The position numbers and the translations under genes are program-made. From an uncultured Oscillospiraceae bacterium (lineage in GTDB: Bacteria > Bacillota > Clostridia > Oscillospirales > Oscillospiraceae): DNA of 64,000 bases. A model generated the notes under the pieces. It was not told the DNA's origin. It made no database searches and saw only the letters and a list, made by a program, of their open reading frames with translations. Below are positions 1,446 through 37,837 of this stretch, piece by piece (within the stretch, counting starts at the first letter, position 1; every line of letters begins with the position of its first letter). The stretch lies in contig CANRIW010000003.1 in NCBI GenBank assembly GCA_947630785.1, forward strand, positions 1 to 64,000, given 5' to 3'.

Positions 1446-1447
1446 TG

Positions 1448-1658: not shown

Positions 1659-1685
1659 CAATCGGATGGGCCAGACGCGTGAATT

Positions 1686-1714: not shown

Positions 1715-1736
1715 CGGGAAAATTCCGCCGCGGGGC

Positions 1737-1765: not shown

Positions 1766-1771
1766 AAGCGT

Positions 1772-2042: not shown

Positions 2043-2070
2043 GCCCCAAATTCCAAAGGAGGAATTTCTT

Positions 2071-21554: not shown

Positions 21555-22898
21555 ATGTTCACCCGCCGCCAGATCGTGAATCTGCTGATCCCCCTGGTAC
21601 TGGAGCAGATCCTGTCCGGGCTGATGGGCATCGCGGACACCATGATGGTCACCAGCGTGGGGGACGCGGCCATCTCCGCCGTGTCCAATGTGGACGCCAT
21701 CAACACCCTGGTGCTCAACCTGCTGGCGGCGCTGGCCGCCGGCGGGGTCATCGTCTGCGCCCAGCACCTGGGCCGGGACCAGCGGGCCGAGGCCAACCAG
21801 GCCGCCCGCCAGCTGCTGCTGACGGCGGTGGTCATCTCCTCCGGCATCGCGGCGCTGTGCCTGATCTTCCGGCGGCCTCTGCTGGCGCTGATCTTCGGCT
21901 CGGTGGACGCCGACGTGATGAGGCAGGCCCTGCAGTACTTTTTTATCACCGCCCTGTCCTACCCCTTCCTGGCCGCCCAACAGACGGCGGCAGCGGTGTT
22001 CCGGGCCTCCGGCCGCTCCGCCCCGCCCATGGCGGTGGCCGCCGTGGCCAACTGCGTCAATATCGCCGGCAACGCGGTGCTGATCTTCGTGTTCCATCAG
22101 GGCGTGGTGGGCGCCGCCGTCGCCACCACCCTGTCCCGGGTCCTCAGCGCGGCGCTGCTGCTGGCCCTCCTCCGCAGCCCGAAGCTGACCATCTCCATCC
22201 GGGACTACCGCCGCATCCGGCCCGATTGGACCGTCATCGGCACGGTGCTGCGGGTGGGGGTGCCCACCGGCGTGGAGAACTCCATGTTCCAGCTGGGCAA
22301 GCTGGTGGTGCAGTCCACCGTGTCCACCATGGGCCGTCCCGTCATGGCCGCCCAGGCCATGATCCAGACCCTGGACATGGTCCAGTGTATGCCGGGCCAG
22401 GCCATCGGCCTGGGGCTGCTCACCGTGGCCGGCCAGTGCATGGGCGCCGGCCGGGTGGACGAGGCCAAAAAGTACACCTGGCGGTTCTGCCTGATTTCCG
22501 AGCTGACCACTGCCGTGATGTGCGGCGCCGTGTGGGCCGCGGCCCCCTTCGTCACCCGGGTCTCCGGCATGTCGTCCGAGAGCGCCGCGCTGACCCTCCG
22601 CATCATGGCCATCATCAGCGTGATGAAGTGCATCCTGTGGGTCATCGCCTTCACTCTGCCCAACGGCATGCGGGCGGCGGGGGACGTGCGCTACTCCGCC
22701 ACCGTGTCCGCCCTTTCCATGTGGATCTTCCGCACGGGCGGCTGCCTCCTGCTGTGCCGGGTGTTCCATGTGGGCCTCATCGGCGTGTGGATCGCCTGGT
22801 TCACCGACTGGGGCGTCCGGGCCATCATCTATCTCTGCCGCTGGTTCAGTGGGAAGTGGGCCGACAAGCAGGTGTTGCGCGCCCCGCAAAAAGATTGA
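21555..22898 (+). CDS. MATE family efflux transporter
   Basis: A 447-residue multidrug/toxin extrusion family protein with about 12 hydrophobic segments in two related halves. The N-terminus (RQIVNLLIPLVLEQILSGLMGIADTMMV) and the internal repeat (VGVPTGVENSMFQLG, second half) are typical. It probably exports organic compounds with sodium or proton antiport; substrate unknown. ATG 21555 is preceded by GAGAGAAGG. The stop codon overlaps the -35 box of the host tRNA-Ser promoter. Confidence 0.92.
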   Translation: MFTRRQIVNLLIPLVLEQILSGLMGIADTMMVTSVGDAAISAVSNVDAINTLVLNLLAALAAGGVIVCAQHLGRDQRAEANQAARQLLLTAVVISSGIAALCLIFRRPLLALIFGSVDADVMRQALQYFFITALSYPFLAAQQTAAAVFRASGRSAPPMAVAAVANCVNIAGNAVLIFVFHQGVVGAAVATTLSRVLSAALLLALLRSPKLTISIRDYRRIRPDWTVIGTVLRVGVPTGVENSMFQLGKLVVQSTVSTMGRPVMAAQAMIQTLDMVQCMPGQAIGLGLLTVAGQCMGAGRVDEAKKYTWRFCLISELTTAVMCGAVWAAAPFVTRVSGMSSESAALTLRIMAIISVMKCILWVIAFTLPNGMRAAGDVRYSATVSALSMWIFRTGGCLLLCRVFHVGLIGVWIAWFTDWGVRAIIYLCRWFSGKWADKQVLRAPQKD

Positions 22899-22923
22899 CA
22901 TTCACGGCGAAATGGGGTATCCT
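22895..22923 (+). promoter_or_regulatory. Host tRNA-Ser promoter, now upstream of the mobile element
   Basis: TTGACA, 17-nt spacer, TATCCT, ending 33 nt before the 5' end of the split tRNA-Ser. It was evidently the promoter of the interrupted host tRNA gene. No terminator is visible before the complete tRNA-Ser(CGA) at 23295, so it may now drive that copy. Confidence 0.75.
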
Positions 22924-22956
22924 AATGGAGCCCCATCGGGGCAAAAAGCCAAATAC

Positions 22957-22997
22957 GCAGCGGTATCGAAGTGGTTATAACGGCCCTGACTCGAAAT
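22957..22997 (+). pseudogene. 5' half of the host tRNA-Ser(CGA), interrupted in the anticodon loop
   Basis: The sequence begins with a 5' acceptor strand GCAGCGG, U8/A9 and a D arm (TCGAAGTGGTTATAACGG), then CCTGA-CTCGAAA-T, after which tRNA similarity stops. Its anticodon stem strand CCTGA pairs exactly with TCAGG of the tRNA 3' half at 37838-37895, and six of seven acceptor pairs match. The two were therefore one tRNA gene split by the 14.8 kb element. This also defines the left attachment site, core CTCGAAAT. Confidence 0.88.
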
Positions 22998-23123
22998 GTA
23001 AGAATTTGGAGGCTGTCCTGTCCCCGGGCATTTTCCGGCATGCGGGGCAAATTGTCCCGAATGAGCGCCATCCCGCAGTTCTGCCCTGTTGTTCTGCCCA
23101 AATGAAAAAGCAAGCTAAAACAC

Positions 23124-23163
23124 GGAGATGTACCCAAGTGGTTGAAGGGTCCGCACTCGAAAT
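23124..23163 (+). pseudogene. 5'-half copy of tRNA-Ser(CGA), second attachment core
   Basis: Forty bases identical to the first forty of the complete tRNA-Ser at 23295, from acceptor GGAGATG through the anticodon loop CTCGAAAT, then abrupt divergence (CATGCC instead of GCGGTA). The break falls at the same point as in the split host tRNA. I read it as the attachment-site remnant of another integration by the same kind of integrase. Confidence 0.8.
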
Positions 23164-23251
23164 CATGCCACGACAGTGTCCCCCAAAACGCCGCAAACCC
23201 GCATAAACAGGGCGTTTGTGGGCTGTTCGGGAGGGTGCGTTTTCAGGCCGT

Positions 23252-23269
23252 GCTAACAAAATGCTAACA
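23252..23269. repeat. Left arm-type integrase sites (GCTAACA x2)
   Basis: Two GCTAACA heptamers spaced 11 bp start to start (23252 and 23263). The same pair with the same 11-bp spacing is found near the right end (37667 and 37678). Short direct repeats near both ends are what lambda-type integrases use as arm sites. Confidence 0.65.
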
Positions 23270-23294
23270 GAAATTCCAGCGACAATTCTATCAT

Positions 23295-23386
23295 GGAGAT
23301 GTACCCAAGTGGTTGAAGGGTCCGCACTCGAAATGCGGTAGGCGTCTAAAAAACGCGCGAGAGTTCGAATCTCTCCATCTCCGCCA
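23295..23386 (+). tRNA. tRNA-Ser (anticodon CGA) carried by the element
   Basis: A complete class II tRNA: acceptor GGAGATG/CATCTCC, anticodon stem CCGCA/TGCGG with loop CTCGAAA (anticodon CGA, reading UCG), long variable arm, T arm GAGAGTTCGAATCTCTC and encoded CCA. It has the same anticodon as the host gene the element destroyed, so it can restore UCG decoding. Its acceptor differs from the host tRNA, so it is a distinct gene rather than a rebuilt one. A strong terminator follows. Confidence 0.96.
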
Positions 23387-23387
23387 T

Positions 23388-23430
23388 AGCGCAAATGCCG
23401 GCCTGAGGGCCGGCATTTGCGCTATTTTTT
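23388..23430 (+). terminator. Terminator of tRNA-Ser(CGA)
   Basis: A 15-bp perfect stem AGCGCAAATGCCGGC with a 6-nt loop, followed by ATTTTTT, starting 2 nt after the tRNA CCA. Confidence 0.92.
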
Positions 23431-23439
23431 CTAAATGGC

Positions 23440-23754
23440 CTACATCTCATCCTTGCGGATATGATGCGACAAATTGGCAGCGTGATCCCTCCCCGCCCTG
23501 CTTGCCGCCTCCCGCCGTTGTTCGCTGTAAGGGGCGGTCAGCCGGAAGGAAAACCGCCCTTTTTCAATGTCAAATTCCAAACATCCCGTCTCCGGGTCTT
23601 CATCGGTCTGGCGGCATACTCCGGGGTTTCGCCGCGCATAGGCGGCAAGCCGCTTTTTCAAATCGGTGTTGTGGGTGCGGATGTGGATCCTGGGGTCTTT
23701 CTCATCGAACCAGATCTCCGTGGTCTTTTCCCGCTTTGTCAGCCCGGTGATCAT
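23440..23754 (-). CDS. Small conserved mobile-element protein
   Basis: 104 residues beginning MITGLTKREKTTEIWFDEKDP. The type is familiar from Firmicute integrative elements, where it sits near the integrase, but I know of no established function. No TM segment or catalytic motif is visible; the protein is charged, with a predicted beta-rich N-terminus and a helical, basic C-terminus. ATG 23754 is preceded by AAAGGAG; the ORF-track extension to 23838 has no ribosome binding site. It lies between the tRNA end and the HTH gene. Confidence 0.7.
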   Translation of the reverse strand: MITGLTKREKTTEIWFDEKDPRIHIRTHNTDLKKRLAAYARRNPGVCRQTDEDPETGCLEFDIEKGRFSFRLTAPYSEQRREAASRAGRDHAANLSHHIRKDEM

Positions 23755-23927
23755 AAAAACTCCTTTCCACGCCTCTGTCACTCGACAGGGACGTTTTTCA
23801 GATATTTCTCCCGGCTCTTGACCGGCAGAAAACAGCAAATGTCCGACAGGACTCCTCCGAGCGACGCACTCCCCGCTCCGAACAGCCCTGTCAGCGAATG
23901 TACGGTTTTTATCGGCTCTTGACGGTG

Positions 23928-24488
23928 CTATATAAAACGAATGGAATCATCAATTTGTCTGGGCACCCATGGCTCCTGCCTGAGAGCGCCGCCCCGTCTG
24001 ATAGCCATCCACCCAGCCAGCCCCTCCTTCGACACCAGATAGGCGCCGCGGTAAGCCACGCTTGCCACGGCACCTATCCGCGCCCACCGGTGCATCGTGT
24101 TCTCCGAGCACCCGCACAGCTCCGCCGCCTGCCGCACCGTCAGTGCGTCCGGCCAGCTTTCCCACGCGGCCAGGAGGGATGCCCGCAGTTTCTCTCGTTC
24201 CGAAGCGGTAAGAGGAACCCGTCCCGGTTTGCGGACGTGGGCCCCACTGGAGAACGCTCCCTTGGGCGCAGCCACCGCAGGATCTCCGGCGTCCCGACGT
24301 TCCAGGAAAGCAATCACATCCGCCAGCCGGATCTTGAATCGCCGGGTCTTTTTCCCTGAGTCCCGGCAGGGCACCACCCCGTGCTCCAGCAGCCACCGGG
24401 CCTTGCGTTTGCTGATATGGCAGATACGGTAGAACTGATCCATGGTGATGACGGCGGGATACTGCTCCCGCAGCTTTTGGTAGTTCAC
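23928..24488 (-). CDS. HTH-domain protein next to the integrase
   Basis: 186 residues with two likely DNA-binding regions of the MerR/excisionase type: ITMDQFYRICHISKRKARWLLEHG (about 14-37) and LTVRQAAELCGCSENTMHRWARIG (about 115-138), each followed by a wing-like segment. It starts with GTG 24488, 1 nt after the integrase stop, so it is probably translated with it. It may act as a recombination directionality factor or repressor of the element. This is inferred from position and fold; no experimental homologue is claimed. Confidence 0.65.
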   Translation of the reverse strand: MNYQKLREQYPAVITMDQFYRICHISKRKARWLLEHGVVPCRDSGKKTRRFKIRLADVIAFLERRDAGDPAVAAPKGAFSSGAHVRKPGRVPLTASEREKLRASLLAAWESWPDALTVRQAAELCGCSENTMHRWARIGAVASVAYRGAYLVSKEGLAGWMAIRRGGALRQEPWVPRQIDDSIRFI

Positions 24489-24489
24489 C

Positions 24490-25740
24490 TCACACCCCCA
24501 TGGTCATGCTGAAGCCGGGGGCCTCGTTCTGCTCCTCTACTTCCCCCAACTGTTCTTCTGCCTGTTCGGGCTCCGGCGGGGCGAAGGCCGCGGCGATGGC
24601 AGCGGCGGACTCCTGCTTGGAGCTGAAATCCAGGTGGGAATAGATGTCGGCAGTGGTGGAGAAGGTGGAGTGACCCAGCCAATCCTGTATTTGCTTCATG
24701 GGGACGTTCTGGCTGAGCAACAGGGTGGCGCAGCTGTGTCTGAGATCGTGGAATCGAATGTGCCTCAGCCCGTGCTGTTCCAGCAGGACCCGGAAATGGT
24801 TGGTGACGTAGTTTGGCTGGAACAGCTGCCCCAACTCGTCGGTGCAGACGTAGTCTATGTACTCCCGGCAATAGGATTTGCCAAACATGGCCCGGTACTG
24901 CGCCTGCTTCTCCCTCTGTTCTTCCAGCAGCTTTCGGGTGGCCGGGAACAGGGGCAGGGTGCGGAAGCTGGACTTGGTTTTGAGCTTGTCCTCGGTGTAA
25001 AGCCGGTGTTCGCCATTCTCGGTGAGTTCGGTGACCTTGTGGTTGATGGACACGGTCCCCCGCTGGAAATCCACGGCGCTCCAGCGGATGCCCAGCACCT
25101 CGCTCCGGCGCAGGCCGTAATAGGCCGCCAACTGGATGACCACTGCCATAGAGTCGTCCTTGGTGGCCTCGAACAGCGCCGCCAATTCGTCCTTGGTATA
25201 GTAGCTGGCCAGATACTTGCCCTTGCGGGGCCGGGCCACCCGGTCCGCGGGATTGCTGGGGATCATGTCGTTCTCCACGGCGTACTGAAGCGCCTTTCGA
25301 ACCAGGGCGTGGTAGTGGATGACGGTATTGGCGTTGCAGCCGTCGTCCAGGATGGATTGGTGCAGCTCCCGGATGTGCTTAGGCTCTACATCGCACAGCT
25401 TCAGCTTCCGGGAACGAAAAAACGGGTCCAGCCGAGCTTTGAACAGTTGCTCATAACTCTGCTTTGTGGTCCGCTCGATGGTGGTGGAGGCAATCTTCAG
25501 CCAATCCTTCAGATAGTCCGCGAACAGCGGAGACTCCTCCTTGGGCTTGGCGGGCTCTCTGAGGATGAACTCCCGCTTCAATTCCTCCAGCCTGGCCATC
25601 GCCTTACGCTTTCCACCCTTCACCGGGATGCCCAGCGCCACGGACTTCTGCCGCCGCTTGCCGTCCTCGTCGTAGTAGCTTAGGATGGCGGTAAATTTGC
25701 CCCGGCGCTCAAACAAGCTGCCGGTGACCTCCCCTTTCAT
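24490..25740 (-). CDS. int: Tyrosine site-specific integrase
   Basis: A 416-residue lambda-type tyrosine recombinase. It has an N-terminal arm-binding region, a SAM-like core-binding domain (about 70-165) and a catalytic domain with Arg near 211 (YYGLRRSEV), Lys near 256, HDLRH (His331, Arg334), LGHS (His357) and the nucleophile Tyr367 in DIYSH. It should catalyse insertion and excision of the element at CTCGAAAT in the tRNA-Ser anticodon loop. The gene points toward the left end, the usual arrangement. The acidic extension after the catalytic Tyr (about 45 residues) is a minor oddity. Confidence 0.96.
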   Translation of the reverse strand: MKGEVTGSLFERRGKFTAILSYYDEDGKRRQKSVALGIPVKGGKRKAMARLEELKREFILREPAKPKEESPLFADYLKDWLKIASTTIERTTKQSYEQLFKARLDPFFRSRKLKLCDVEPKHIRELHQSILDDGCNANTVIHYHALVRKALQYAVENDMIPSNPADRVARPRKGKYLASYYTKDELAALFEATKDDSMAVVIQLAAYYGLRRSEVLGIRWSAVDFQRGTVSINHKVTELTENGEHRLYTEDKLKTKSSFRTLPLFPATRKLLEEQREKQAQYRAMFGKSYCREYIDYVCTDELGQLFQPNYVTNHFRVLLEQHGLRHIRFHDLRHSCATLLLSQNVPMKQIQDWLGHSTFSTTADIYSHLDFSSKQESAAAIAAAFAPPEPEQAEEQLGEVEEQNEAPGFSMTMGV

Positions 25741-25804
25741 AACAGATACCTCCCTTCCGCGCCGCTCTAAGGTCTTGTGATGTTACCTTGGAACGGCGCG
25801 TTTT

Positions 25805-26035
25805 TCAAGTCTTTTCTGCGTTTTCCCCGGCGCAAAGATAGTCGATGACCGCCGTCTTGGGAATCCGGTAGATCCGGCCCATCCGCACGCTGGGAATGGC
25901 CCCCGTCCGCAGCAGCCGGTAGGCCGTCCGCTGGCCCACACCCAGCATCTGCCGGACCTGCTCCGGGGTCAGAGCGTCCGGGTAGCCCCGGAACATGGCC
26001 CGGTATCGGGTCAGATTTTTATCCTCTCTGCCCAT
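25805..26035 (-). CDS. xis: Excisionase-like helix-turn-helix protein
   Basis: 76 residues with one winged-helix domain of the excisionase/MerR type: LTPEQVRQMLGVGQRTAYRLLRTGAIPSVRMG followed by RIYRIPKTAVIDYL. It lies just upstream of and parallel to the integrase (64-nt gap) and is divergent from the sigma-like gene, the usual place for an excisionase that bends DNA at the element ends. The symbol reflects this inferred role. A simple regulator cannot be excluded. Confidence 0.75.
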   Translation of the reverse strand: MGREDKNLTRYRAMFRGYPDALTPEQVRQMLGVGQRTAYRLLRTGAIPSVRMGRIYRIPKTAVIDYLCAGENAEKT

Positions 26036-26053
26036 GATTTGCAGCCCTCCCTC

Positions 26054-26091
26054 TTGACAATCGAGTTGTAATTGATTACTATAATTACAAC
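26054..26091 (+). promoter_or_regulatory. Divergent control region with inverted repeat
   Basis: TTGACA, 17-nt spacer, TACTAT (overlapping TATAAT) gives a rightward promoter. Over it lies the inverted repeat GTTGTAATT (26065-26073) / AATTACAAC (26083-26091), which also contains GTAAT/ATTAC. It separates the integrase/excisionase genes from the cargo. The repeat is a good candidate operator for one of the element's HTH proteins. Confidence 0.6.
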
Positions 26092-26139
26092 AATTACTCC
26101 GTCTATAAGATAGACGGTTCGGAGGGTGAAAACGGTACC

Positions 26140-26649
26140 ATGGCAGAAAAGAATTTTAAGTGGGGGAATGAGGCCGACAAGCGGGAGGCGGAACTGGATC
26201 ATAGGCTCCGAGAACTGGCCGGCGCCGGCAACTGGGACGGCGTCCTGGCCGAGTTGGACCGCTACGACGGGAACAACGAGCGGAGACACGAAGAACACCG
26301 GGCGGACCTGGACCCCACGGTGATGGAGCGGGAGCCCAAGCCGGAAGAACTGAGAGTCCAGAGGCCGGGAGACTGGCGGAAACTGTGCCGCTGGGAGGAA
26401 TGGGATGACGTGATCTTCTCCCAACCCCCGGAGGACATCCACCAACTGGTCGCTGAGTATCCCACCAGCGCGGCGCTGAAAGAGCTGAGCGACCTCCAGC
26501 GGCTGGTGCTCTGGGAGAACGTCGTATCCCAGGTCTCCACCAAAGAGATCGCGGAGGAACTGGGATGCTCGGTCCGAAACGTGACCAAACTCCGAAAGAG
26601 GGCAATCGAGAAGGTCCGGCTGTTGGTGACCGGGTGCAAAGACCTCTAA
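26140..26649 (+). CDS. Sigma-70 region 4-like regulator
   Basis: 169 residues. The C-terminal third is a sigma region 4/LuxR-type HTH: LSDLQRLVLWENVVSQVSTKEIAEELGCSVRNVTKLRKRAI (about 112-155). The N-terminal half is highly charged and lacks a clear region 2 (-10 recognition), so it is probably not a complete sigma factor. It is the first rightward gene of the element and likely regulates the cargo or element functions. ATG 26140 has GGAGGG 11 nt upstream. Confidence 0.7.
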   Translation: MAEKNFKWGNEADKREAELDHRLRELAGAGNWDGVLAELDRYDGNNERRHEEHRADLDPTVMEREPKPEELRVQRPGDWRKLCRWEEWDDVIFSQPPEDIHQLVAEYPTSAALKELSDLQRLVLWENVVSQVSTKEIAEELGCSVRNVTKLRKRAIEKVRLLVTGCKDL

Positions 26650-26734
26650 AAATGCAAAAATAGCCAGAACCGCTCTTGCGGCTCCGGCTGAAAGATGATA
26701 TAGTGATTACAGCGATTACACAGGAGGAACTGTG

Positions 26735-27439
26735 ATGGAATTGAATGATGTCTTAGCAGGCCAGCGCATCATGTGGCCTCTGTGGCAGGGCTATACAATT
26801 AAAAAACATAGAGGCGTGCAATATCTGGTTCCGGATCTGGACGCCTCTGAGCAGCCCAGGTTGATTTGGTATAACTGCGCAGAGATGCCTGGAGAGCTGG
26901 TTGCAAATGCGTTGGAACTGGGACGCCTGATCACCATAGACGACCCGTCAAAAGACTACGCCTGTACCGATTTTGCGGCCCGTTACGGCCTCCTGGGGCT
27001 TGGGGCGGATAAGGACACCGCCCCTGTCCAGCACCCCGATTTGAGGCCGTCAAGCCGCTTGGTAAACAGCAAAGGCTATGGCGAGGAATTGGAGCGCTTT
27101 CGCAACGTGTTCAAAAGCCTGTATCAGCGGTTCAGCATTATCGGCAGACCGGAGGTTCTCCCGCTTCCAAAAGGCTCCGATCTCCTGGCTTTGTCCGGAT
27201 CGATTGGCTTTCACATGACAGGAGCGACGCGCCCGCAGTTTTCCTGGGAGTTTTCCTCGCTGGAGGCGTTTCTCCATTTCGCGTACAGCGCATTGGTCAG
27301 CAGCCCGCGAAAGACACTGAAAATCTGCAAAAACTGTGAGCAAATATATTACAATATCAATCCCAAAAGCGAGTTTTGTAGTACACGGTGCAGGAATTAC
27401 TATAACGTGAAGGTGTTTAGGGAGAAAGAGAAAATCTAA
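26735..27439 (+). CDS. CGNR-like zinc-finger protein, first gene of the restriction cassette
   Basis: 234 residues. The C-terminus has a four-Cys zinc-binding motif, CKNCEQIYYN...FCSTRCRNYYNVKVF (about 198-228), similar to CGNR-type fingers of ABATE-like putative regulators. The N-terminal 190 residues show no motif I know. ATG 26735 has AGGAGG at ideal spacing; GTG 26732 is less likely. It precedes res by 38 nt and may regulate the cassette or take part in it. Upstream lie GATTAC repeats (26705, 26714) that could be its operator. Confidence 0.55.
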   Translation: MELNDVLAGQRIMWPLWQGYTIKKHRGVQYLVPDLDASEQPRLIWYNCAEMPGELVANALELGRLITIDDPSKDYACTDFAARYGLLGLGADKDTAPVQHPDLRPSSRLVNSKGYGEELERFRNVFKSLYQRFSIIGRPEVLPLPKGSDLLALSGSIGFHMTGATRPQFSWEFSSLEAFLHFAYSALVSSPRKTLKICKNCEQIYYNINPKSEFCSTRCRNYYNVKVFREKEKI

Positions 27440-27477
27440 AGCGAAATCGCTATTATTCACAGTTGGGGGAGCAAAAG

Positions 27478-30357
27478 ATGTTCCATCAAATGATTACCAA
27501 CGCAAGAAACCAGTGGCTGGCATCTCCTGATTGCACAGTCAGGGATCTGCTCCGTTATATTGAGCGAACCGGCCAGATGCGCGACGCGCAGATCGAGGCC
27601 ATAAAAACCTATCTGTTTTTGAAGATCTGCTGTGGGTGCAGGCCCCTCTCTGCCCTGTTTGCAGAGGGCGCGTTCAACACTGCGGACATCGGAGAACTGT
27701 CCCTCCCTGACCGGGTAAAAGGGTATCTTCGGGCTGACCCCGCAGCGGCAGCGCTCCTGGAGTACGCTAACCTGAAAAACGACGAGGGTGAGCAGGTCTC
27801 CAAACGGTTGGCGGAACAGATCGCATCAGAGCCGGACAGCATCGACTATCAGAAGTTTTTTAAGGACGTTTTCTACGGCGTCTCCTATACCGACTACCTG
27901 TTCAGCCTGCCCATGGGCGCGGGAAAGACTTACCTCATGGCGGCGTTTATCTATCTTGATCTGTATTTCGCGCTGAATGAGCCGCAAAACCCTGCCTTCG
28001 CCCACAATTTCATTATCTTTGCGCCCTCTGGATTGAAGTCCTCCGTGGTTCCCAGTCTGAAGACCATCCAGAAGTTCGATCCAGCTTGGGTCATTCCGGA
28101 GCCCGCTGCGTCCCGCGTTAAGCGCATGATTTCCTTCGAGGTGCTGGATCAGGCCAAGACCGCCAATAAGTCCAACAAGACAAAGAATCCCAATGTGCAA
28201 AAAATCGCCAACCACCAGCCGCTGGACGAGCTGTTCGGTTTGGTGGCCGTGACCAACGCGGAAAAGGTCATTCTGGACCGCATCCAGGAGCGAAGCGGAC
28301 AGATCACCTTCTACGAGGAGAGTGACGACGAAAAGGACCGGCAAGCCAACGAGCTGCGCAACCTGATCGGCAAGCTGCCTGCCCTGTCCGTTTTCATCGA
28401 CGAGGTCCACCATGCGGTCAGCGACGAGATCAAACTGCGGGCCGTGGTGAATCAGTGGACGGCGAACCGCACAGTCAACTCTGTGGTGGGCTTTTCTGGC
28501 ACGCCGTACCTGGAGCGGGCGGAAAAAATCGCCGTGACGGACAGGCTGTCCGTGGCCACGGCGGAGATCACCAATATCGTCTACTACTATCCCCTTATCA
28601 GCGGCGTGGGGAACTTCCTGAAACGCCCGGTGGTGAAGATCGCAGACATAGCGGAGAGCACGCGCATCATCGAGAACGGTGTCAGGGCGTTCCTGGACAC
28701 CTATTTGGATACCGTTTATCAGGACGACACCACCGCCAAACTGGGCATCTACTGCGGCACCATTGAGAAACTGGAGGAGACGGTCTATCCCCTGGTCTCC
28801 AGGATCGCCGGGGAATACGGCCTCCCAGGGGACGCCATTCTCCGCTTCCACAAGGGCAACAAACAACACCCCCAGCCGGCGGACAGCCAAATGCAGTTCG
28901 ACAGCCTGGACAAGCCTTTTTCCAGAGTCCGCATCGTCCTGTTAGTGCAGATCGGCAAGGAGGGCTGGGACTGCCGCAGCCTCACCGGGATCATTCTCTC
29001 CCAGGAGGGGGACTGCCCCAAGAACATGGTGCTCCAAACCTCCTGCCGCTGCCTGCGTCAAGTGGACAAGGGGCAGCCGGAGACGGCGCTCATCTACCTG
29101 AACCGGGCCAACGGAGAGAAACTGGACGCCCAGCTCCAGCAGCAGCACCACATCTCCCTCAAAGAGTTCGGGGACGCCGACAATGGCAAAATCACGCTCA
29201 ACCGCTATGATCGGACGGGCTATCTCAAGCTGCCCAGGGTGGAGTTCTACCAGTTGAAGGTCAGCTATGCCACTACCATCACCAGCGAGGCGGACCCGGC
29301 GGCGGACATCCCCCAGGCCTGCGTCGGTGCAGAGGCCGCGCTGGAGAGTACGACCACCACTGATCTGACTATGAAAGCCCTGGCGACGGAGGTTCACGAC
29401 GAGGAGCAGGGCGCCGTCCCCGCCACCTTCGACGCTTGGCTGTATGGGATCGCCCGGAGCAGCATTGATACGCTGAAGCTGGAAGAACTGAATCAGCACC
29501 GTGAGGCGCTTCGGCGGGTGTTCGAGCAGATCACCTATGAGCGGGATGGCAGCCGGTATTTCAGTTCCCGGTATGACCGGGCCGCAGTGGAGGCCAACAT
29601 CCGCAAGGCGTTCTGTATCAAGCGGACCTACACCACCAAAGAGGAGCTTGTCCCGGAGGAGGCCAGTCTGCTGAACATTGCCAACTTCCAGCCGGTGATC
29701 CATGCCGATTCCGCTGACGCCTACTATCCCAAGCAGGATACGGTGGAAAACATCATCTTGGACGACCAGGGCAAGCTGAAAATGAAGCCCGATATCCAAG
29801 CGGCGATTCTGGTACTGGAGGCGGACGACAGCCCGGCCAACCGTGCGATTGCCGAAACGCTCCGTAAGCAAAATTCCTCCCACCCACAGAAGGACAAGTC
29901 TTTCCACTACCTGCCCTATCGCACGGACAGCGGGTTCGAGCGGAAGTTCATGGATGGGATGCTGCCCTTCCTGGACGATCCCGCTGTCAAGGCCATGGGG
30001 CTGGAGCTCTACTACAACGGGGACAAGGCCCTGACAGAGTTTCAGATCCGTTGCTACAAGTCCGCCGGGGGCCGGTATCGGTATATCGGGATGTACACCC
30101 CGGACTTCCTCATCCTCCAGCGCCGAGCGGGAAAGATCTACAAGGCCATCATCGTGGAGACCAAGGGCGAGCTCTACGCCAACGACCCGAAGTTCAAGGA
30201 CAAGCGGGCGTTCACAGAGTCGGAGTTCGTCCGGCAGAACAACGCGAAGTTCGGGTATGAGCGGTTCGAATACCTGTATCTGGAGGACACCATGCCGGAG
30301 GCGGAGAGATTATGGATTGTGAAAGAGAAAATTAAGAAATTCTTTGATGGAAATTAG
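27478..30357 (+). CDS. res: Type III restriction enzyme, Res (helicase-nuclease) subunit
   Basis: A 959-residue SF2 helicase with a C-terminal nuclease. Walker A is PMGAGKT (145-151), the DEAD-type motif is IDEVHHA (about 306), motif III is FSGTPY, and motif VI lies in LQTSCRCLRQ. The C-terminal PD-(D/E)xK nuclease appears as TPDFLILQR...VETKG (about residues 875-894). It uses ATP to translocate or diffuse along DNA and cuts unmodified sites together with Mod. ATG 27478 has GGGGGAG upstream; TTG 27463 is rejected. Unusually, another gene lies between it and mod. Confidence 0.92.
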   Translation: MFHQMITNARNQWLASPDCTVRDLLRYIERTGQMRDAQIEAIKTYLFLKICCGCRPLSALFAEGAFNTADIGELSLPDRVKGYLRADPAAAALLEYANLKNDEGEQVSKRLAEQIASEPDSIDYQKFFKDVFYGVSYTDYLFSLPMGAGKTYLMAAFIYLDLYFALNEPQNPAFAHNFIIFAPSGLKSSVVPSLKTIQKFDPAWVIPEPAASRVKRMISFEVLDQAKTANKSNKTKNPNVQKIANHQPLDELFGLVAVTNAEKVILDRIQERSGQITFYEESDDEKDRQANELRNLIGKLPALSVFIDEVHHAVSDEIKLRAVVNQWTANRTVNSVVGFSGTPYLERAEKIAVTDRLSVATAEITNIVYYYPLISGVGNFLKRPVVKIADIAESTRIIENGVRAFLDTYLDTVYQDDTTAKLGIYCGTIEKLEETVYPLVSRIAGEYGLPGDAILRFHKGNKQHPQPADSQMQFDSLDKPFSRVRIVLLVQIGKEGWDCRSLTGIILSQEGDCPKNMVLQTSCRCLRQVDKGQPETALIYLNRANGEKLDAQLQQQHHISLKEFGDADNGKITLNRYDRTGYLKLPRVEFYQLKVSYATTITSEADPAADIPQACVGAEAALESTTTTDLTMKALATEVHDEEQGAVPATFDAWLYGIARSSIDTLKLEELNQHREALRRVFEQITYERDGSRYFSSRYDRAAVEANIRKAFCIKRTYTTKEELVPEEASLLNIANFQPVIHADSADAYYPKQDTVENIILDDQGKLKMKPDIQAAILVLEADDSPANRAIAETLRKQNSSHPQKDKSFHYLPYRTDSGFERKFMDGMLPFLDDPAVKAMGLELYYNGDKALTEFQIRCYKSAGGRYRYIGMYTPDFLILQRRAGKIYKAIIVETKGELYANDPKFKDKRAFTESEFVRQNNAKFGYERFEYLYLEDTMPEAERLWIVKEKIKKFFDGN

Positions 30358-30412
30358 ATTTTAAACAATGGATAGGGAAGAGTGTGTTTTTCCAATCATA
30401 GGGGGTCAGATA

Positions 30413-31045
30413 ATGAGATTGCAAAGGAAAACACTATTTTGGTCTAGCTTTGTTTCGATTATTGCATTGACTATATCGTATGTAACGTATATTGCCGAGT
30501 ACGAATACATAAGCAATATCTGCGTAGGACTATTTTCAAGCGGAATCTTAATCTGTATTACTTCGGCTGTGGCTTATTATCATGAGCGAAATGCTACGAT
30601 TTTATTGCTATACAGAGGTTGCTATAAATTCATGGAATCACTTACAAATAATTTGAGGTTAGATAACATGATCGATATCTATGAATTGCGCGAAGACCTC
30701 GATATGATAATTCATGTGTATAATGAGGATGTATACTATTACATTTGTGAGTTAAAGCAAATAAATCGGCACTCTAGCATTCGTAAAATTACTGATGATA
30801 TATGGGAAAATATACGACATGTCTATTTATTTGCCGCTGATGACAGAAAGACCGTTATGAAGTGCTTGCTTGGAGACTTGGATGTAACGGAAATTAAAAA
30901 CTATCCCTGGAAGCATGTTGGCGATGAGGCCGCGGCATATTTGGAAAAGCTTCAAAAAGCATTAGACAAACTTGCCTATCAGATGAATTATTTCAATAGA
31001 AGAAAAGAAAAAAGTAGCCAGGAGGTGCCCACTGATGCCGATTAA
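30413..31045 (+). CDS. Two-TM protein embedded between res and mod
   Basis: 210 residues. Two hydrophobic segments at the N-terminus (about 10-30, WSSFVSIIALTISYVTYI, and 35-58) are followed by a ~150-residue charged, probably cytoplasmic helical domain. No enzymatic motif is visible. It is strikingly AT-rich compared with res. ATG 30413 has GGGGGTC upstream; ATG 30368 lacks a ribosome binding site. Its stop overlaps the mod start by 11 nt, so the two are translationally coupled. It could be a membrane effector of the restriction system or a passenger. Function unknown. Confidence 0.65.
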   Translation: MRLQRKTLFWSSFVSIIALTISYVTYIAEYEYISNICVGLFSSGILICITSAVAYYHERNATILLLYRGCYKFMESLTNNLRLDNMIDIYELREDLDMIIHVYNEDVYYYICELKQINRHSSIRKITDDIWENIRHVYLFAADDRKTVMKCLLGDLDVTEIKNYPWKHVGDEAAAYLEKLQKALDKLAYQMNYFNRRKEKSSQEVPTDAD

Positions 31046-33047
31046 ATACGTCCCTTTCATCCCTGAGCCCATCGAGGGCCAGGCGGTGCTGGCCAATTTC
31101 AACCGCATACTGAAATACAAGGGCGCAAACGATGTGTCCATGGTGCTCCAGCGGGGGATGCCGCTGTATGAGATGGAGAAACAGGAGACGGTGGGCGAGA
31201 ACCCGGACGGCAACATGGTCATCCGGGGCGAGTGCGTGTCGGCCTGCGCCTATCTGAAGGAGCAGGGCATCCAGGTGGATCTGGTCTACATCGACCCGCC
31301 CTTCGCCAGCGGCGCGGACTACGCCAAGAAGGTCTACATCCGCCGCAACCCCAAGGTGGCCGAGGCCATGGCCCAGGCGGAGCAGGAATTAGAAACCACT
31401 GAGGATTTCCGTAAGTTTGAAGAGAAAATGTACGGCGACGTGTGGGACAAAGAGAAATACCTGAACTGGATGTATGAGAACCTCATGGCCATCAAGAGTG
31501 TCATGAGCGAGAAGGCATCAATTTTTGTACATTTAGACTACCATATTGGGGCATATGTAAAAATCCTTATGGATGAAGTCTTTGGTGAAAGTAATTGTAT
31601 CAATGAAATTGTTTGGCGCAGAAAAGGGGGAACAGCCTTGGGATCGATGAATTCTCTTTCTGTGGCGTATGATACGATTTTTTGGTATTCCAAATCCTCC
31701 GACTATGTTATGAATCCTGTATTTTCGAAAGCCTCGAAAGAATATATCGAGCAGCAATTCAAATATAAAGATGCCGACGGCAGACGATACATGATTACAG
31801 TCATGCGGAGCCCTAACCCTCGTCCGAACTTAATGTACGATTACAAGGGATATCAAACACCGCCCAATGGGTGGGCAGTGACCCGCCATAAAATGGAGGA
31901 ACTTGATCGTTTGGGCTACTTGCATTTCCCTGATTCCAAAGATAAACAGGTTTATAGAAAGATTTATCTTGATGAGTATCAAGGTCAAGCAATCAATAAT
32001 TTATGGACAGACATTTCAACATTAAAAGGCAATAATAGTGAACTTACAGATTATGCGACCCAAAAACCTGAGGAACTTTTGGAAAGGATAGTATGCCTGG
32101 CATCAAATACATCCATGCTTGTGGCCGATTTTTTCGGCGGCAGCGGTGTCACCGCAGCGGTGGCCGCCAAGCTGGGCCGGCGCTTCATCCACTGTGACAT
32201 CGGCCTCAACTCCATCCAGACTACCCGCGACCGCCTGAAAGCGGACGGCGCGGAGTTTGACGTGCTGGAGATCAAGGACGGCGTCCAGCTCTACCGCAAC
32301 CCGGTGCAGACCATGGACAAAATCAAGTCGCTGATCCCCGGCCTGAAAAACGAGGACTTCCTGGACTCCTTCTGGGAGGGGGCCATATCCGACAGTAAGC
32401 TGGGCACCGTGCCCGTCTATGTGCCCAACCTGATGGACAGCTCCTCCAAGCTGCTGGACGAGGTAATGATGAACCGCATCCTCCACCAGGCCATCCCCGA
32501 CCTGGACAGCAGCGTGAAGAAGGTCATCGTCTACTACATCGACATCACCAGCGAGGAAGAGATCAAAAAGTTCATCAGGGACGATGACAGCACCGTGGTG
32601 GAGATCGAGCTACGGGATCTGAAGACCATCCTGGACGATGTGGTGGTGGGAGACTATGCCGAATTCCATGTGGAGGAGAGCAGGGCCGATCTGTTCGGCG
32701 GCTGGCGTGTGGTCGTGGACAAGTTCCTCAGCGACCGGGTCATGCAGAAGATCGACGAGTTCAACCAGAAGGCCCGGATGAACGCCACGGAGAAGCGGCC
32801 CTTCAAGCCCATTGAGATCAGCAAGACCGGGCTGGAGCTCATCGAGTATCTGAGCGTGGACTGCACTGCGGTGGAGGGCGAGTGGCACTCCGACAGCGAG
32901 ATCAAGATCGACAAGAACGGGTTCGTCATCCGGGACGGGGCGAAGACCAAGGAGTTCTGGGACGGGACGATCTGCTGTGACAAGCGGCCCCTGCGGGTGA
33001 AGGTGAGGAACATCTGCGGGGATGAAACGGTGTGGAACATGAAGTGA
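31035..33047 (+). CDS. mod: Type III DNA methyltransferase, Mod subunit
   Basis: A 670-residue beta-class N6-adenine methyltransferase. The catalytic motif DPPF (87-90, in VYIDPPFASG) precedes the AdoMet-binding motif FFGGSG (366-371, in ADFFGGSGVTAA), the order of type III Mod proteins. The region between, about residues 160-360, is the expected target-recognition part and is markedly AT-rich, unlike the GC-rich flanks. The C-terminal ~270 residues should contact Res. It methylates one strand of a short asymmetric site, not predictable here, and directs Res. ATG 31035 overlaps the two-TM gene. Confidence 0.93.
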   Translation: MPIKYVPFIPEPIEGQAVLANFNRILKYKGANDVSMVLQRGMPLYEMEKQETVGENPDGNMVIRGECVSACAYLKEQGIQVDLVYIDPPFASGADYAKKVYIRRNPKVAEAMAQAEQELETTEDFRKFEEKMYGDVWDKEKYLNWMYENLMAIKSVMSEKASIFVHLDYHIGAYVKILMDEVFGESNCINEIVWRRKGGTALGSMNSLSVAYDTIFWYSKSSDYVMNPVFSKASKEYIEQQFKYKDADGRRYMITVMRSPNPRPNLMYDYKGYQTPPNGWAVTRHKMEELDRLGYLHFPDSKDKQVYRKIYLDEYQGQAINNLWTDISTLKGNNSELTDYATQKPEELLERIVCLASNTSMLVADFFGGSGVTAAVAAKLGRRFIHCDIGLNSIQTTRDRLKADGAEFDVLEIKDGVQLYRNPVQTMDKIKSLIPGLKNEDFLDSFWEGAISDSKLGTVPVYVPNLMDSSSKLLDEVMMNRILHQAIPDLDSSVKKVIVYYIDITSEEEIKKFIRDDDSTVVEIELRDLKTILDDVVVGDYAEFHVEESRADLFGGWRVVVDKFLSDRVMQKIDEFNQKARMNATEKRPFKPIEISKTGLELIEYLSVDCTAVEGEWHSDSEIKIDKNGFVIRDGAKTKEFWDGTICCDKRPLRVKVRNICGDETVWNMK

Positions 33048-33099
33048 ATTGTTTGCTCACCTATACATTCATAAACTATGGACGGGATTTGAAAAGTCG

Positions 33100-34098
33100 A
33101 TGATACACGCAGACATTTTTGAGGCTATTCGTGCCATTGAGCCATCCTCTCCGGTGTTAAATCTGAAAGATAAGAATGGACAGGGGCTTCTGCGGCGACA
33201 TCTCGCATACGACATGATGACAGGCCCAAATGGGAAAACCGTGATGATCCCCCGCACAGGGATGAATATGATACTCTATCGGGGGCAGCGAAACAAAGAT
33301 TGGATTTGCGATCCCGTTATATATAGGAACGCGACAGAACAATCACTTCTGATAGATCGGCTAAAAGTAATAGATTTTTCCTTGATTGCCGAACAATTTC
33401 CTCCGGTCTATTACGCAAGGCAATGGAACGTAGATGTAGATATGCTTGCCCTTGCCCAGCACTACGAAATAAAAACAGATATGCTGGATTTGACGTCGGA
33501 TATTTCTGTGGCTGCTTTTTTTGCGGTGACAAAGTATAACGACCTAAAAGGGCGGTATGAACCGATGCACAGCGGAGTTGGGTCTATCAGCACCTTCTTC
33601 TCCTTGATGGGGATGGAAACTGATGATCTAGATTTCAGAATAGTTGGACTACAGCCCTTTGCGCGACCAGGTCAACAATGTGCTTTTGGTATAAGGCTGC
33701 CCCAGGGCGCTACGCTGGAATCTCTAAATCGCGGCAATAAAATATACTTCCAACATAACCCGAAATACAACCAGCAAATAATGGATATTTTTGGAGCAGA
33801 GAAAAATAATACGCTGTTTCCGAAAGAGCGTATTGCAGATGCTGCAAAAATCGTTCGGGATAGCACAGTAGTAACGGAACGGGCAATTGACCTGTATTGT
33901 GCTGCTCATGGGGTTGAGAAGACTGATATCAAAAACAAGCTAAAAGATTGTCATATTGACATTTCACCGAAACCGATCTTCCGACTAACGAAAAAAGAAA
34001 ACGAGGCATTGAGGCGGCAGTTCCGTAGTAATCCTTTTGGCAATGTTGAAATACCAATATTTCAAAGATTGATGTATACTCCCAGCACAAAACAGTAG
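33100..34098 (+). CDS. FRG domain-containing protein
   Basis: 332 residues. The FRG domain is recognised by LYRGQRNKDW (about 59-68) and LALAQHYEIKTDMLDLTSDISVAAFFA (about 116-142), the usual two signature blocks. FRG proteins are often found beside restriction and other phage-defence genes, but the activity is unknown. The gene is AT-rich and follows mod by 52 nt. ATG 33100 is chosen; the alternative TTG 33049 directly after the mod stop would add 17 residues and could be used by coupling. No terminator separates it from mod. Confidence 0.85.
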   Translation: MIHADIFEAIRAIEPSSPVLNLKDKNGQGLLRRHLAYDMMTGPNGKTVMIPRTGMNMILYRGQRNKDWICDPVIYRNATEQSLLIDRLKVIDFSLIAEQFPPVYYARQWNVDVDMLALAQHYEIKTDMLDLTSDISVAAFFAVTKYNDLKGRYEPMHSGVGSISTFFSLMGMETDDLDFRIVGLQPFARPGQQCAFGIRLPQGATLESLNRGNKIYFQHNPKYNQQIMDIFGAEKNNTLFPKERIADAAKIVRDSTVVTERAIDLYCAAHGVEKTDIKNKLKDCHIDISPKPIFRLTKKENEALRRQFRSNPFGNVEIPIFQRLMYTPSTKQ

Positions 34099-34149
34099 CT
34101 ATTGCGCTCAGATTGTGCTATTGTGTCTTGCTAACAGGAGGCGAGACAT

Positions 34150-34455
34150 ATGAACGAAACCCTCAAAGCCTTATACGACAGTTTCTACATCCGCCCCGAA
34201 GTCCCCGCAGCCGAAGCGGAGGCCGAGACTGCCCGTCAGGCACTCGGTGAACTGCTGGACAAGCAGGGCCGCCGATTGGTACTACGGATCATTGACGCCA
34301 AGGATGAGATCGCGGATGCCCGCTCTCTGGACAGCTTCATTAGTGGGTTCCGGCTGGCGTGGCGGCTGGCCATTGAACTGAATCGATACGACAGTGAGCG
34401 CCCGGAGTTTCTTCCGGGCGCTCACCGCGTCTATCAGGACATGGATAGTGAGTGA
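34150..34455 (+). CDS. Small helical mobile-element protein (DUF6809-like)
   Basis: 101 residues, helical and acidic (MNETLKALYDSFYIRPEV...), matching the DUF6809-type small proteins common in Firmicute mobile elements. Function unknown. ATG 34150 has AGGAGGCGAG upstream. It is the last rightward gene of the cargo block; the GAGCGCCCGGA/TCCGGGCGCTC inverted repeat within its 3' end (34398-34424) may help terminate transcription before the convergent mobilisation genes. Confidence 0.7.
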   Translation: MNETLKALYDSFYIRPEVPAAEAEAETARQALGELLDKQGRRLVLRIIDAKDEIADARSLDSFISGFRLAWRLAIELNRYDSERPEFLPGAHRVYQDMDSE

Positions 34456-34812
34456 TCACTCCGCCCGCTCCGCCGTCCGCCAGGAGAGGTACCCGTTTGC
34501 CTTTCTGCGGTAAGTACACCTCCACCGGCTCCCGTCAAAGACCTCGTCGGCAAAGTTGATGAGCGTCTCCTTGGGCGAGTAGTTCACGCCCCAACTCTGC
34601 CACCAAGCTTGGAGCATGACCTTCCGCCCATCATCCGCGTCGAAGCAGCACAGCAGCATGGGTTTATTTCTGTGCCAGCAGCGAAAGGCCAGGGTGCCGG
34701 TGAACTCTCCATCCTCGGTGGGAATACGGTACTCGCTCAGCGGCGCGGCCTCCCGATCCGCCTTGGTGCGGATGATCTGCGCCCGACAGGGATACTGTTC
34801 CTCGTAAGTCAT
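34456..34812 (-). CDS. Hypothetical protein downstream of mobV
   Basis: 118 residues beginning MTYEEQYPCRAQIIRTKADRE. It has a central FRCWHRNKPMLLCCFDADDGRKV segment and no recognised domain or TM helix. Small proteins like this commonly accompany MobV relaxases in Firmicute elements. ATG 34812 has GAGGAGG upstream, lies 13 nt after mobV, and the ORF-track extension overlaps mobV. Its end abuts the DUF6809-like gene (convergent). Function unknown. Confidence 0.65.
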   Translation of the reverse strand: MTYEEQYPCRAQIIRTKADREAAPLSEYRIPTEDGEFTGTLAFRCWHRNKPMLLCCFDADDGRKVMLQAWWQSWGVNYSPKETLINFADEVFDGSRWRCTYRRKANGYLSWRTAERAE

Positions 34813-34825
34813 TTTCGATTCCTCC

Positions 34826-35800
34826 TCATTTGTGATCAAAGTACTGGTTCTGCTGCTGGCCCAGCTCATACCGGCGCCGCAGCTCCTCGTAGATCTCCGG
34901 CGGGATGGAGTCGATGAAACTCTGGTACTCCCGAAGCTCGTAGATCAGGTTCAGCCCCTCCTGGTGCTCCTGATCCCGCTCCCACTTGGCCTGCTCCGCC
35001 TCGCCTCGCAGCGCAAGTTCCTCCTTCCGCATGACCTCGATCTGCTGGCCGTAGGGTTTCAGCTTCGCCTCAAAGGCGTTGACCTTCGGGTACCACTGGG
35101 AGAGCAGCGCCAACAATTTCTCCCTCTGTTTTGATGCGTTCAGCACTCCGATGTCCTTGACCTCCCTCCGGATCTGCTTCATCTCCTGGCTCAGCCGGTG
35201 GGATTGCTTGTACAGCCAGGTGGGGATGTGCTTCCGCTTGGTGACCGCCGCCGCCTGCCCCCGCTCCAGCTCCGGGAACTCCTCGGCCATGTAGTCGTGG
35301 AATCGGTCCTGCCACTCCACCAGCCGCGCCCGGTCCCCCATCACCTCCTTGGCGGACAACCGGTTGTCTTTGGTAAGCGGCACGAAGCACAGGTGCATGT
35401 GAGGGTTGCGCTCGTCCATGTGGACCACGGCGGAAAAGATGTTCTCCGCGCCCACCTCGCTCTGCATGAACTCCAGCGCCCGCTCGAAGTAGCGGCGGGT
35501 CTTTTTCTCGGAGAGACTCGCTAAAAATTTCGGTGTGGCGGTGATGATGGTGTCGATGAACTTCACGCTGTCCTTCCTCACCCGGCACCGGGGGTTGGCC
35601 CTCTGGGCCCGCTCGATGCGGGATTGGATCTCCGCGTAATATTTCATCTGCGGCTGGACCAGATGGTAGTTCTGAGCGGAGCGTGAGGTGTCCACGTCGG
35701 GGTTGCTGGCGTACTGTTCCTTCTTCCGCTCGTGATGTTTTTCCAGGGCGCTGGCCGGGCCGCCCTTCCGTTTCTCAAATCGCAAGATGGCAAATGGCAT
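34826..35800 (-). CDS. mobV: MobV family relaxase (Mob/Pre)
   Basis: Nicks the element at oriT and pilots the strand during mobilisation by a helper conjugation system. 324 residues. The diagnostic MobV motif is HMDERNPHMH (127-136). The N-terminus (FAILRFEKRKG) and the active-site region are present, followed by a C-terminal coiled coil (about 230-310). ATG 35800 has AAAGGAG upstream. A pMV158-type nic sequence lies 181 nt upstream of its start. No coupling protein or mating-pair genes are present. Confidence 0.93.
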   Translation of the reverse strand: MPFAILRFEKRKGGPASALEKHHERKKEQYASNPDVDTSRSAQNYHLVQPQMKYYAEIQSRIERAQRANPRCRVRKDSVKFIDTIITATPKFLASLSEKKTRRYFERALEFMQSEVGAENIFSAVVHMDERNPHMHLCFVPLTKDNRLSAKEVMGDRARLVEWQDRFHDYMAEEFPELERGQAAAVTKRKHIPTWLYKQSHRLSQEMKQIRREVKDIGVLNASKQREKLLALLSQWYPKVNAFEAKLKPYGQQIEVMRKEELALRGEAEQAKWERDQEHQEGLNLIYELREYQSFIDSIPPEIYEELRRRYELGQQQNQYFDHK

Positions 35801-36239
35801 GGTGGAAGACTCCTTTCAAAAAACAATTGTGCGGTGGACGGAGGTTTTTCACATCCCGCCCCGGCCCGCCGCCGAGAGGTCTGTGGCGAATACGGCGGTG
35901 GCGCGGCGGGCACTCCGCCTATAAAAAGTGCCCGGCTCCCAGAACGAGAGTCGGGCGCTGTGTGGCAGTGCAGCGGGGCGGTATAACGCACTATACCTTT
36001 CCGCCCGGTCGGGCGGAAAGGCGTGCGGCCGGGGACACCCCGGCACCCCGTTTTGCGGCTTCGCTCCGCCCCGGAGGGGACGGGCTTCGCCGCGCTGCCG
36101 ACGGTGGGAATGGTACGTTGACAGCGCCGGCAGCCGCCTGCGGGCGGACGAAGGACGAAAGACGGGGGACGTGGGGATCAGGGCGGCAGGGCATAAAAAC
36201 AGCGCCCGCGCTCTCGCGCGGACGCCGAAGCGGACGTGT
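35801..36239. other. Origin-of-transfer region, no genes
   Basis: About 440 GC-rich bases between the relaxase and the ATPase gene. They contain the oriT, an inverted repeat GGGCACT (35908-35914)/AGTGCCC (35927-35933), a hairpin TTTCCGCCCG-GTCGGGCGGAAA just right of oriT and CGGGGACACCCCG beyond. The ORFs listed over it have poor codon structure and no ribosome binding sites, so I regard the stretch as non-coding. Confidence 0.6.
35981..35996 (-). other. oriT: oriT with predicted nic site (MobV/pMV158 type)
   Basis: The minus strand reads GTATAGTGCGTTATAC, nearly the pMV158 oriT core (TAGTGTG/TTA nick). By that analogy the nick is after G at 35987, before T at 35986. It lies 181 nt upstream of the mobV start and is oriented with it. 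One base differs from the pMV158 core within the nick heptamer. Confidence 0.78.
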
Positions 36240-37556: not shown

Positions 37557-37575
37557 GGCGATCACCTCTGCTGAC

Positions 37576-37604
37576 AGGATACCACACGATGAACAAAAAA
37601 TCAA
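37576..37604 (-). promoter_or_regulatory. Promoter of the DUF4143 ATPase gene
   Basis: Minus-strand TTGATT, 17-nt spacer, TATCCT. A perfect 16-bp palindrome AAAGTTTATAAACTTT (37617-37632) lies 12 bp upstream of the -35 box and may be an operator. Confidence 0.6.
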
Positions 37605-37666
37605 GTTTTTAGAATCAAAGTTTATAAACTTTCAAAATCCAAAAGTTTTTTACATGGCTCGACATT

Positions 37667-37796
37667 GCTAACAGAATGCTAACAAACTACCGCAAAACCC
37701 GCTTTTTCACCCTCTGTCTGAATCCGTTGAAATTGCCCGGAAAGTTCGCAAAACGCTTAGAAGTACAAGGGTTTCCGCCGTTTTCAGGTGCTAACA
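37667..37796. repeat. Right arm-type integrase sites (GCTAACA x3)
   Basis: GCTAACA occurs at 37667-37673 and 37678-37684 (11-bp spacing, as at the left end) and again at 37790-37796, preceded by GTTTTCAGG as on the left. The array lies 40-170 bp inside the right attachment core. Confidence 0.65.
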
Positions 37797-37837
37797 GAGG
37801 ACGGACGAGGACGCCGGAGGACGCCCGGTTTTAAGGG

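Follow-up and report, generated by a model that had tools for sequence, protein, structure and literature searches.

A split tRNA-Ser(CGA) gene and a probably mobilizable element that may replace it by promoter capture in an uncultured Oscillospiraceae bacterium, with related loci across Bacillota

RESULTS

Organization of the tRNA-Ser(CGA) locus

The window, that is, the whole stretch of 64,000 nucleotides analysed here, belongs like many of its relatives described below to a metagenome assembly, in this case of an uncultured Oscillospiraceae bacterium, and carries on its + strand an array of whole and broken tRNA-Ser(CGA) sequences. Upstream of the whole array lies the promoter of the original host tRNA-Ser(CGA) gene (22895-22923; TTGACA-17-TATCCT, 10/12), which is the only promoter-like site in 22500-24300. 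It is followed by the 5' half of the host gene ('a', 22957-22997), cut in the anticodon loop and ending in the core CTCGAAAT (22990-22997); by the left end of an earlier element, E1 (22998-23123; arm-type pair GTTCTGCCC at 23078-23086 and 23091-23099); by a second 5' half ('b', 23124-23163), which is assigned to the tRNA-Ser(CGA) of E1 and matches bases 1-40 of the complete tRNA exactly; and by the left end of the resident element, E2 (23164-23294), which has arm-type repeats TGCTAACA at 23251 and 23262 and is without a promoter-like site. Next come the complete element-borne tRNA-Ser(CGA) ('c', 23295-23386), the one tRNA-Ser(CGA) given by ARAGORN, with an intact CTCGAAAT target at 23327-23334, and an intrinsic terminator (23386-23425) with an 18-bp perfect stem and a T run. 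The intervals between the halves and the next tRNA start are 126 and 131 bp and hold arm-type repeats but no gene. No terminator-like site was found on the + strand between the promoter and the 23386-23425 terminator, and the broken halves showed no stable structure better than shuffles. A preliminary description of this DNA had reported a near-consensus promoter, a broken host 5' half, a complete tRNA-Ser with the same anticodon at 23295 and a strong terminator with none before it, all of which were recovered here; absent from it were the second 5' half (23124-23163) and the lost host 3' half (37838-37895).

This 3' half, also on the + strand, begins with the core (37838-37845) and has one acceptor mismatch. 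Joined at CTCGAAAT, 22957-22997 and the stretch from 37846 fold as a tRNA-Ser(CGA) with that single mismatch (ARAGORN). Rejoining works only between 22990 and 37838, and hybrids of the host 3' half with 'b' or with the 5' part of 'c' do not fold as a tRNA. Because the 3' half rejoins 'a' only, the host tRNA-Ser(CGA) gene is, as we read the sequence, split in its anticodon loop by an element of about 15 kb that spans approximately 22990-37845, and the complete tRNA is cargo of that element. All four occurrences of the core in the window fall within a tRNA or a tRNA half, and since the layout also recurs in dozens of genomes, chance is excluded. The 8-bp core is all that the element ends and the target have in common; the carried complete tRNA, which sits 14.5 kb from the host 3' half, shows 62% identity to the split host gene. 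Moreover, the element end next to the host 3' half contained no tRNA-like sequence, and thus the target is not restored by a homologous fragment. The idea that the 131-bp interval is itself a tiny element was rejected, the host 3' half having been found at 37838.

Genes of the element

The carried tRNA is convergent with a tyrosine integrase gene (24490-25740, - strand; PF00589, E=1.7e-24), whose product was placed in an integrase tree. Between the two is the gene of an HTH_17 protein (23928-24488, - strand; domain match), a possible directionality factor or regulator that is also present in the minimal relative L184. The other genes encode a sigma-70 region 4-like protein (26140-26649, + strand; domain match), a Mob_Pre (MobV) relaxase (34826-35800, - strand; PF01076, 4.8e-54), an AAA_14/DUF4143 ATPase (36240-37604, - strand; PADLOC candidate PDC-S01) and, as cargo, a type III restriction-like Res subunit (27463-30357, + strand; PF04851), an N6/N4 DNA methyltransferase resembling type II/III Mod subunits (31035-33047, + strand; domain match and PADLOC) and an FRG-domain protein (33049-34098, + strand; PADLOC candidate PDC-S15). 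PADLOC reported the methyltransferase and candidate families only on the element; the FRG and DUF4143/AAA_14 proteins beside the type III-like pair belong to these candidate defence families. No type IV secretion or conjugation genes were found among the large ORFs scanned in the element, and no phage genes among its scanned ORFs. Because a relaxase is present without conjugation genes among the scanned ORFs, the element has a mobilizable look, and it is probably mobilizable. The L184 relative measures 5.4 kb and contains the tRNA, the HTH gene, the integrase and a Mob_Pre relaxase, with both host tRNA halves in place, and the other elements of the family range from 15 to 66 kb. The inner element of G154 carries ArdA, ArdC and NlpC/P60 genes, typical of ICEs, and the G132 element has a type I restriction system as cargo.

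Left ends, right end and nested elements

The E1 and E2 left ends differ, with GTTCTGCCC twice in 22998-23123 and TGCTAACA twice in 23164-23294. The motif TGCTAACA is found three times at the right end (37666, 37677 and 37789, within 37666-37796, + strand) and only once elsewhere in the window besides the E2 left end, and the E1 left end has no direct 8-mer in common with the right end. Because TGCTAACA links the right end to the E2 left end, the right end is attributed to E2, and E1 is represented by a footprint only. As the two left ends differ and have different arm motifs, 'b' was rejected as a tandem duplication.

Nested elements are preserved in related genomes. In G154, the tRNA of an outer element is split by an inner one, and its 3' half immediately precedes the outer integrase; in G217, the outer left end is as in G154 (98% identical over 149 bp) and the tRNA is whole. 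A sister genome of the window (L183/L273) reads on its left side 5'a, left end 1, 5'c, left end 1, 5'c, left end 2 and complete c, its oldest core being already mutated; the E1 left end of the window is among the left ends of L183. On its other side, the same E2 right end leads into a c-type 3' half, after which come a terminator and a further integrase. We read this genome as a retained nested intermediate. Three more integrases (L210, L212 and L216) are preceded by a 3' half only, as expected for split resident tRNAs, and in L212, which comes from an isolate, the rest of the array lies 17.9 kb away. In L273 (3361-4911 and 4873-8632, reverse complement), a large ORF that by eye resembles a serine recombinase comes after the E1 remnant and precedes DNA matching 2-3765 of the window, which suggests that L273 is rearranged relative to the window.

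A family of related loci

The search covered 250 genomes of the same family and the GTDB genome collection. A common layout, consisting of a 5' half, a left end of about 130-150 bp with integrase arm sites, a complete tRNA with the same anticodon and a convergent integrase, was seen in about 70 related integrase loci at Ser(CGA), Leu(CAA), Leu(TAA) and Ser(TGA). Eighty integrase loci have a complete convergent tRNA (51 Ser(CGA), 14 Leu(CAA), 6 Leu(TAA) and a few other isotypes); an automatic search that demanded an exact core match found a 5' half upstream with an identical anticodon core in 64 of the 80, with 57 at a distance of 130-175 bp versus 0.16 expected, in counts that treat related, and hence not independent, loci as separate. 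Inspected by eye, about seven of the remaining 16 loci have a 5' half, and the other nine show ordinary attachment sites or nothing recognisable. The carried anticodon equals the broken anticodon wherever a half was recognised, and the extra cases found by eye agree. A split tRNA that can be rejoined is present in the eight elements with both ends located (the window, G200, G154, G132, G219, G029, L184 and G255). The family is distributed over Oscillospiraceae, Lachnospiraceae, Christensenellaceae, Clostridiaceae, Peptococcaceae and Paenibacillaceae, and isolates are included, the same layout being present in L187, L193, L194, L198 and L212/G255. Caproiciproducens galactitolivorans and Clostridium sporosphaeroides are two of the isolates that have it. 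In the integrase tree, the target isoacceptor is strongly clustered, with several switches.

Several observations concern the margins of this family. Loci with the same layout at Leu(TAA), Leu(CAA) or Ser(TGA) are L072, L074, L075, L078, L079, L082, L085, L086, L202, L205, L206, L252-L254 and L258. As no other tRNA is expected to read the codons served by the TAA and TGA anticodons, tRNA replacement at the TAA and TGA loci should be essential. Related integrases at L221, L227, L232, L239 and L242 have Tyr, Gln or Leu tRNAs as neighbours; the tRNA clusters there are ordinary and lack a broken half, and a switch between rebuilding and replacing the target within one integrase family is possible at these loci. 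Others (L189, L207, L219, L222, L224, L226, L233 and L248) have no tRNA or half within 1.1-5 kb upstream. Another kind of footprint, in which a 5' half is followed by only about 45 bp to the next tRNA start, was seen at L035 (core 1460), L095, L101 (core 1463), L172 and L184 (oldest half). At least some of these loci have no integrase in the vicinity, and the footprint probably belongs to a different element family with the same target. In a phage collection, the nearest matches were unannotated faecal contigs, of which L305 and L306 carry a tRNA-Ser(CGA), the latter with two upstream 5' halves.

Promoters and terminators across the family

A promoter scoring at least 9/12 is located upstream of the outermost broken half in 41 of 59 loci, versus 8.5 expected from dinucleotide shuffles, whereas such a promoter falls within the left end in 6 of the 59, versus 5.2 expected from shuffles; host-side scores differ from left-end scores over these 59 loci (Wilcoxon p=2e-6). 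Promoter-like sites are a feature of a minority of left ends, and the best score in the E2 left end is 7/12, at a site whose -10 hexamer touches the tRNA. Terminators are found at most 60 bp after the carried tRNA in 55 of 80 loci (2.8 expected), and terminator-like sites within left ends are only mildly above expectation (10/64 versus 4.6); the promoter and terminator counts, too, take related loci as separate. Promoter capture is supported because left ends are without promoters and promoters lie upstream of the broken half; the simplest reading is an element built for read-through from the promoter of the gene that it breaks. The proposal made earlier, that the element destroys an isoacceptor and brings a replacement for it downstream of the captured promoter, finds support in this pattern, with which the promoter statistics of the family agree.

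Serine tRNA genes of the host

The genome of the window (98.5% complete, 72 contigs) has one gene for each serine anticodon (CGA, GCT, GGA and TGA). A second CGA gene, which would have spoken against the earlier proposal, was not found besides 'c' among the tRNA genes of this 98.5%-complete genome. UCG makes up about 15% of the serine codons in a sample of host ORFs. By wobble, tRNA-Ser(UGA) may read UCG, and as this tRNA is present, the CGA gene may be dispensable. Among 12 genomes, namely those with all three genes, median pairwise identity is 73% for Ser(CGA) versus 92% for Ser(TGA) and 90% for Ser(GCT), with an effect size that is uncertain because the genomes were partly picked by matches to the two tRNA types. 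Comparison of the window with its congener G247 is unaffected by this choice and gives 65% identity for Ser(CGA), 99% for Ser(TGA) and 95% for Ser(GCT). In G029:C23 (L124, 2547 and 17851), which belongs to another genus, the split and the carried tRNA have one and the same sequence, close to that of 'a' of the window, whose host gene may itself be descended from an element.

DISCUSSION

In this report, we describe an integrative, probably mobilizable element whose carried tRNA would capture the promoter of the gene that the element breaks, at a site invaded serially by E1 and then E2, a reading that we hold with high confidence. It is built on what the sequence itself contains, namely the split host gene, the carried tRNA, the shared layout, the nested intermediate and left ends without promoters. 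According to this model, the tyrosine integrase would recombine at CTCGAAAT, the 8-bp core that lies within the anticodon loop of tRNA-Ser(CGA), and integration would cut the host gene without rebuilding it. The carried tRNA-Ser(CGA), placed just inside the left end with its own terminator, would take its promoter from the broken gene. A transcript started there would cross the broken half and then the left end before it reached the carried tRNA, and this would be processed out as a functional tRNA. Since the carried tRNA keeps the target core, it would offer a fresh target under the same promoter, and elements can nest or reinvade; a newcomer would enter the carried tRNA, bring its own and leave as a footprint a 5' half and a left end of about 130 bp. 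In the window, the predicted order of recombination is that E1 entered host gene 'a' and E2 then entered 'b', the tRNA of E1. The body of E1 would have been lost, most simply by recombination between two cores, so that the right end of E2 now abuts the host 3' half.

Other explanations of this arrangement deserve consideration. A complete tRNA beside an integrase is what ordinary attachment sites display, and some related integrases at Tyr, Gln and some Leu loci look so; the element might accordingly be an ordinary tRNA-targeting island, with a homologous end fragment that rebuilds the host tRNA and upstream halves that are leftovers. However, the complete tRNA is inside the element, distant from the host 3' half and divergent from the split gene, the element ends and target have only the core in common, and the 3' half at 37838 pairs with 'a' and not with 'b' or 'c', which refutes an ordinary island here and makes it very improbable. 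Broken 5' halves upstream of an intact tRNA also call to mind a reverse-orientation island that restores the tRNA 5' half, of the 5'-fragment kind known to fragment-based finders (159/3919 in Islander), the element then being the short stretch from broken half to complete tRNA; yet those intervals are just 126 and 131 bp long and contain arm-type repeats rather than a gene, and the distal 3' halves in eight elements put the tRNA inside the element, so this explanation is refuted and almost certainly wrong.

Serial integration itself might be questioned, as 'b' matches 'c' without a difference over 40 nt, and L065 and L186 repeat the same left end, which would suit extra 5' halves formed by local tandem duplication or assembly collapse. 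But the intervals between the halves differ and have different arm motifs, G154 and the sister genome still have the nested element together with the integrase and 3' half of the outer one, and isolate genomes show the same arrangement, and we give duplication or collapse very little credence. An expression of the carried tRNA mainly from a left-end or non-consensus promoter, with the captured promoter incidental, is unlikely. The carried tRNA of phage Fionnbharth does have its own strong promoter (PMC10865867) and a few left ends of the family score at least 9/12, but the E2 left end, with its weak site touching the tRNA, is a poor candidate, and, taken together, left ends score no higher than shuffles, with clear enrichment on the host side.

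Returning to the model of serial invasion with promoter capture, we consider what would retain such an element. The earlier proposal was that the replacement could select for retention. When un-nested, the carried tRNA would make integration survivable but loss would go unpunished, because precise excision would rejoin the host tRNA. In the window, excision between the ends of E2 (23156 x 37838) would leave a b/a hybrid that, when the sequence was joined and tested, was not a tRNA. As the host 3' half in addition has an acceptor mismatch, retention is plausible here; the element's own past may have locked it in, provided that tRNA-Ser(CGA) is of consequence to the cell, and retention by addiction is possible in this strain.

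The nearest known system is the tRNA-dependent lysogeny of actinophages, shown by genetics for the actinobacteriophages Fionnbharth, LeBron, Gaia and others (PMC10865867). The two are alike in having an element-encoded tyrosine integrase, an attB with a short core in a host tRNA gene (CTCGAAAT in the window) from which no functional tRNA is rebuilt, and a carried tRNA of matching isotype, here Ser(CGA) in the window and the same anticodon in all family loci with a recognised half. They are unlike in their carriers, which are temperate phages of Actinobacteria there and IME- or ICE-like elements of Bacillota here; our element does not qualify as a temperate phage because it has Mob_Pre and restriction-modification cargo and no phage genes among its scanned ORFs, and relatives have ArdA/ArdC/NlpC-type ICE genes. 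Furthermore, the tested phage tRNA has its own promoter whereas the host promoter is apparently used here, and in our family the tRNA lies just inside the left attachment end, the target core is preserved and nested footprints pile up. The authors of the phage study suggest that the phenomenon reaches beyond actinophages and cite prophage Lj965 of Lactobacillus johnsonii (PMC10865867).

Canonical tRNA-targeting islands, as Williams 2002 is cited in PMC8371274 and as represented in Islander, resemble our elements in their tyrosine integrase, their anticodon-loop sub-site and the expectation that the gene is still expressed from its original promoter. They differ in that the gene is rebuilt there with a homologous fragment, whereas here a whole divergent gene replaces it, and these elements would probably escape fragment-based finders or be assigned a wrong size by them. 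Integrative and mobilizable elements (PMC5704250) likewise combine an integrase and a Mob relaxase with no visible conjugation genes. In tandem accretion (PMC5704250), newcomers also use the attachment sites of residents, but there attR carries the end of the restored gene, whereas here the cargo tRNA of the resident is the new attB. In the open-access literature, we found no report of a non-phage family carrying a promoterless tRNA as its own renewable target, nor of the same arrangement in IMEs. What is new here, as far as sequence can tell, is a non-phage, promoter-capturing tRNA replacement with a self-renewing target.

Across Bacillota, tRNA replacement by such elements seems to have affected serine and leucine genes. 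We lean towards, without being sure of, a Bacillota-wide lineage whose attachment site is a functional promoterless tRNA, which captures the host promoter and renews the target at each integration, so that elements succeed one another and leave footprints, foreign class II (Ser, Leu) tRNAs replace native ones and, where ends have been shuffled as in the window, an element becomes locked in. A large non-phage family in another phylum bears on the question of how far tRNA-dependent integration extends, and promoter capture would give the carried tRNA a simple expression route while its target renews itself. The family also offers a possible mechanism for the foreign replacement of core tRNA genes, congeners sharing 95-99% identity in Ser(GCT/UGA) versus 65% in Ser(CGA), and a fossil record of repeated invasions at a single site. 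Fragment-based island finders would be likely to pass over this element class, and with it the essentiality of the tRNA and the lock-in of the element become directly testable.
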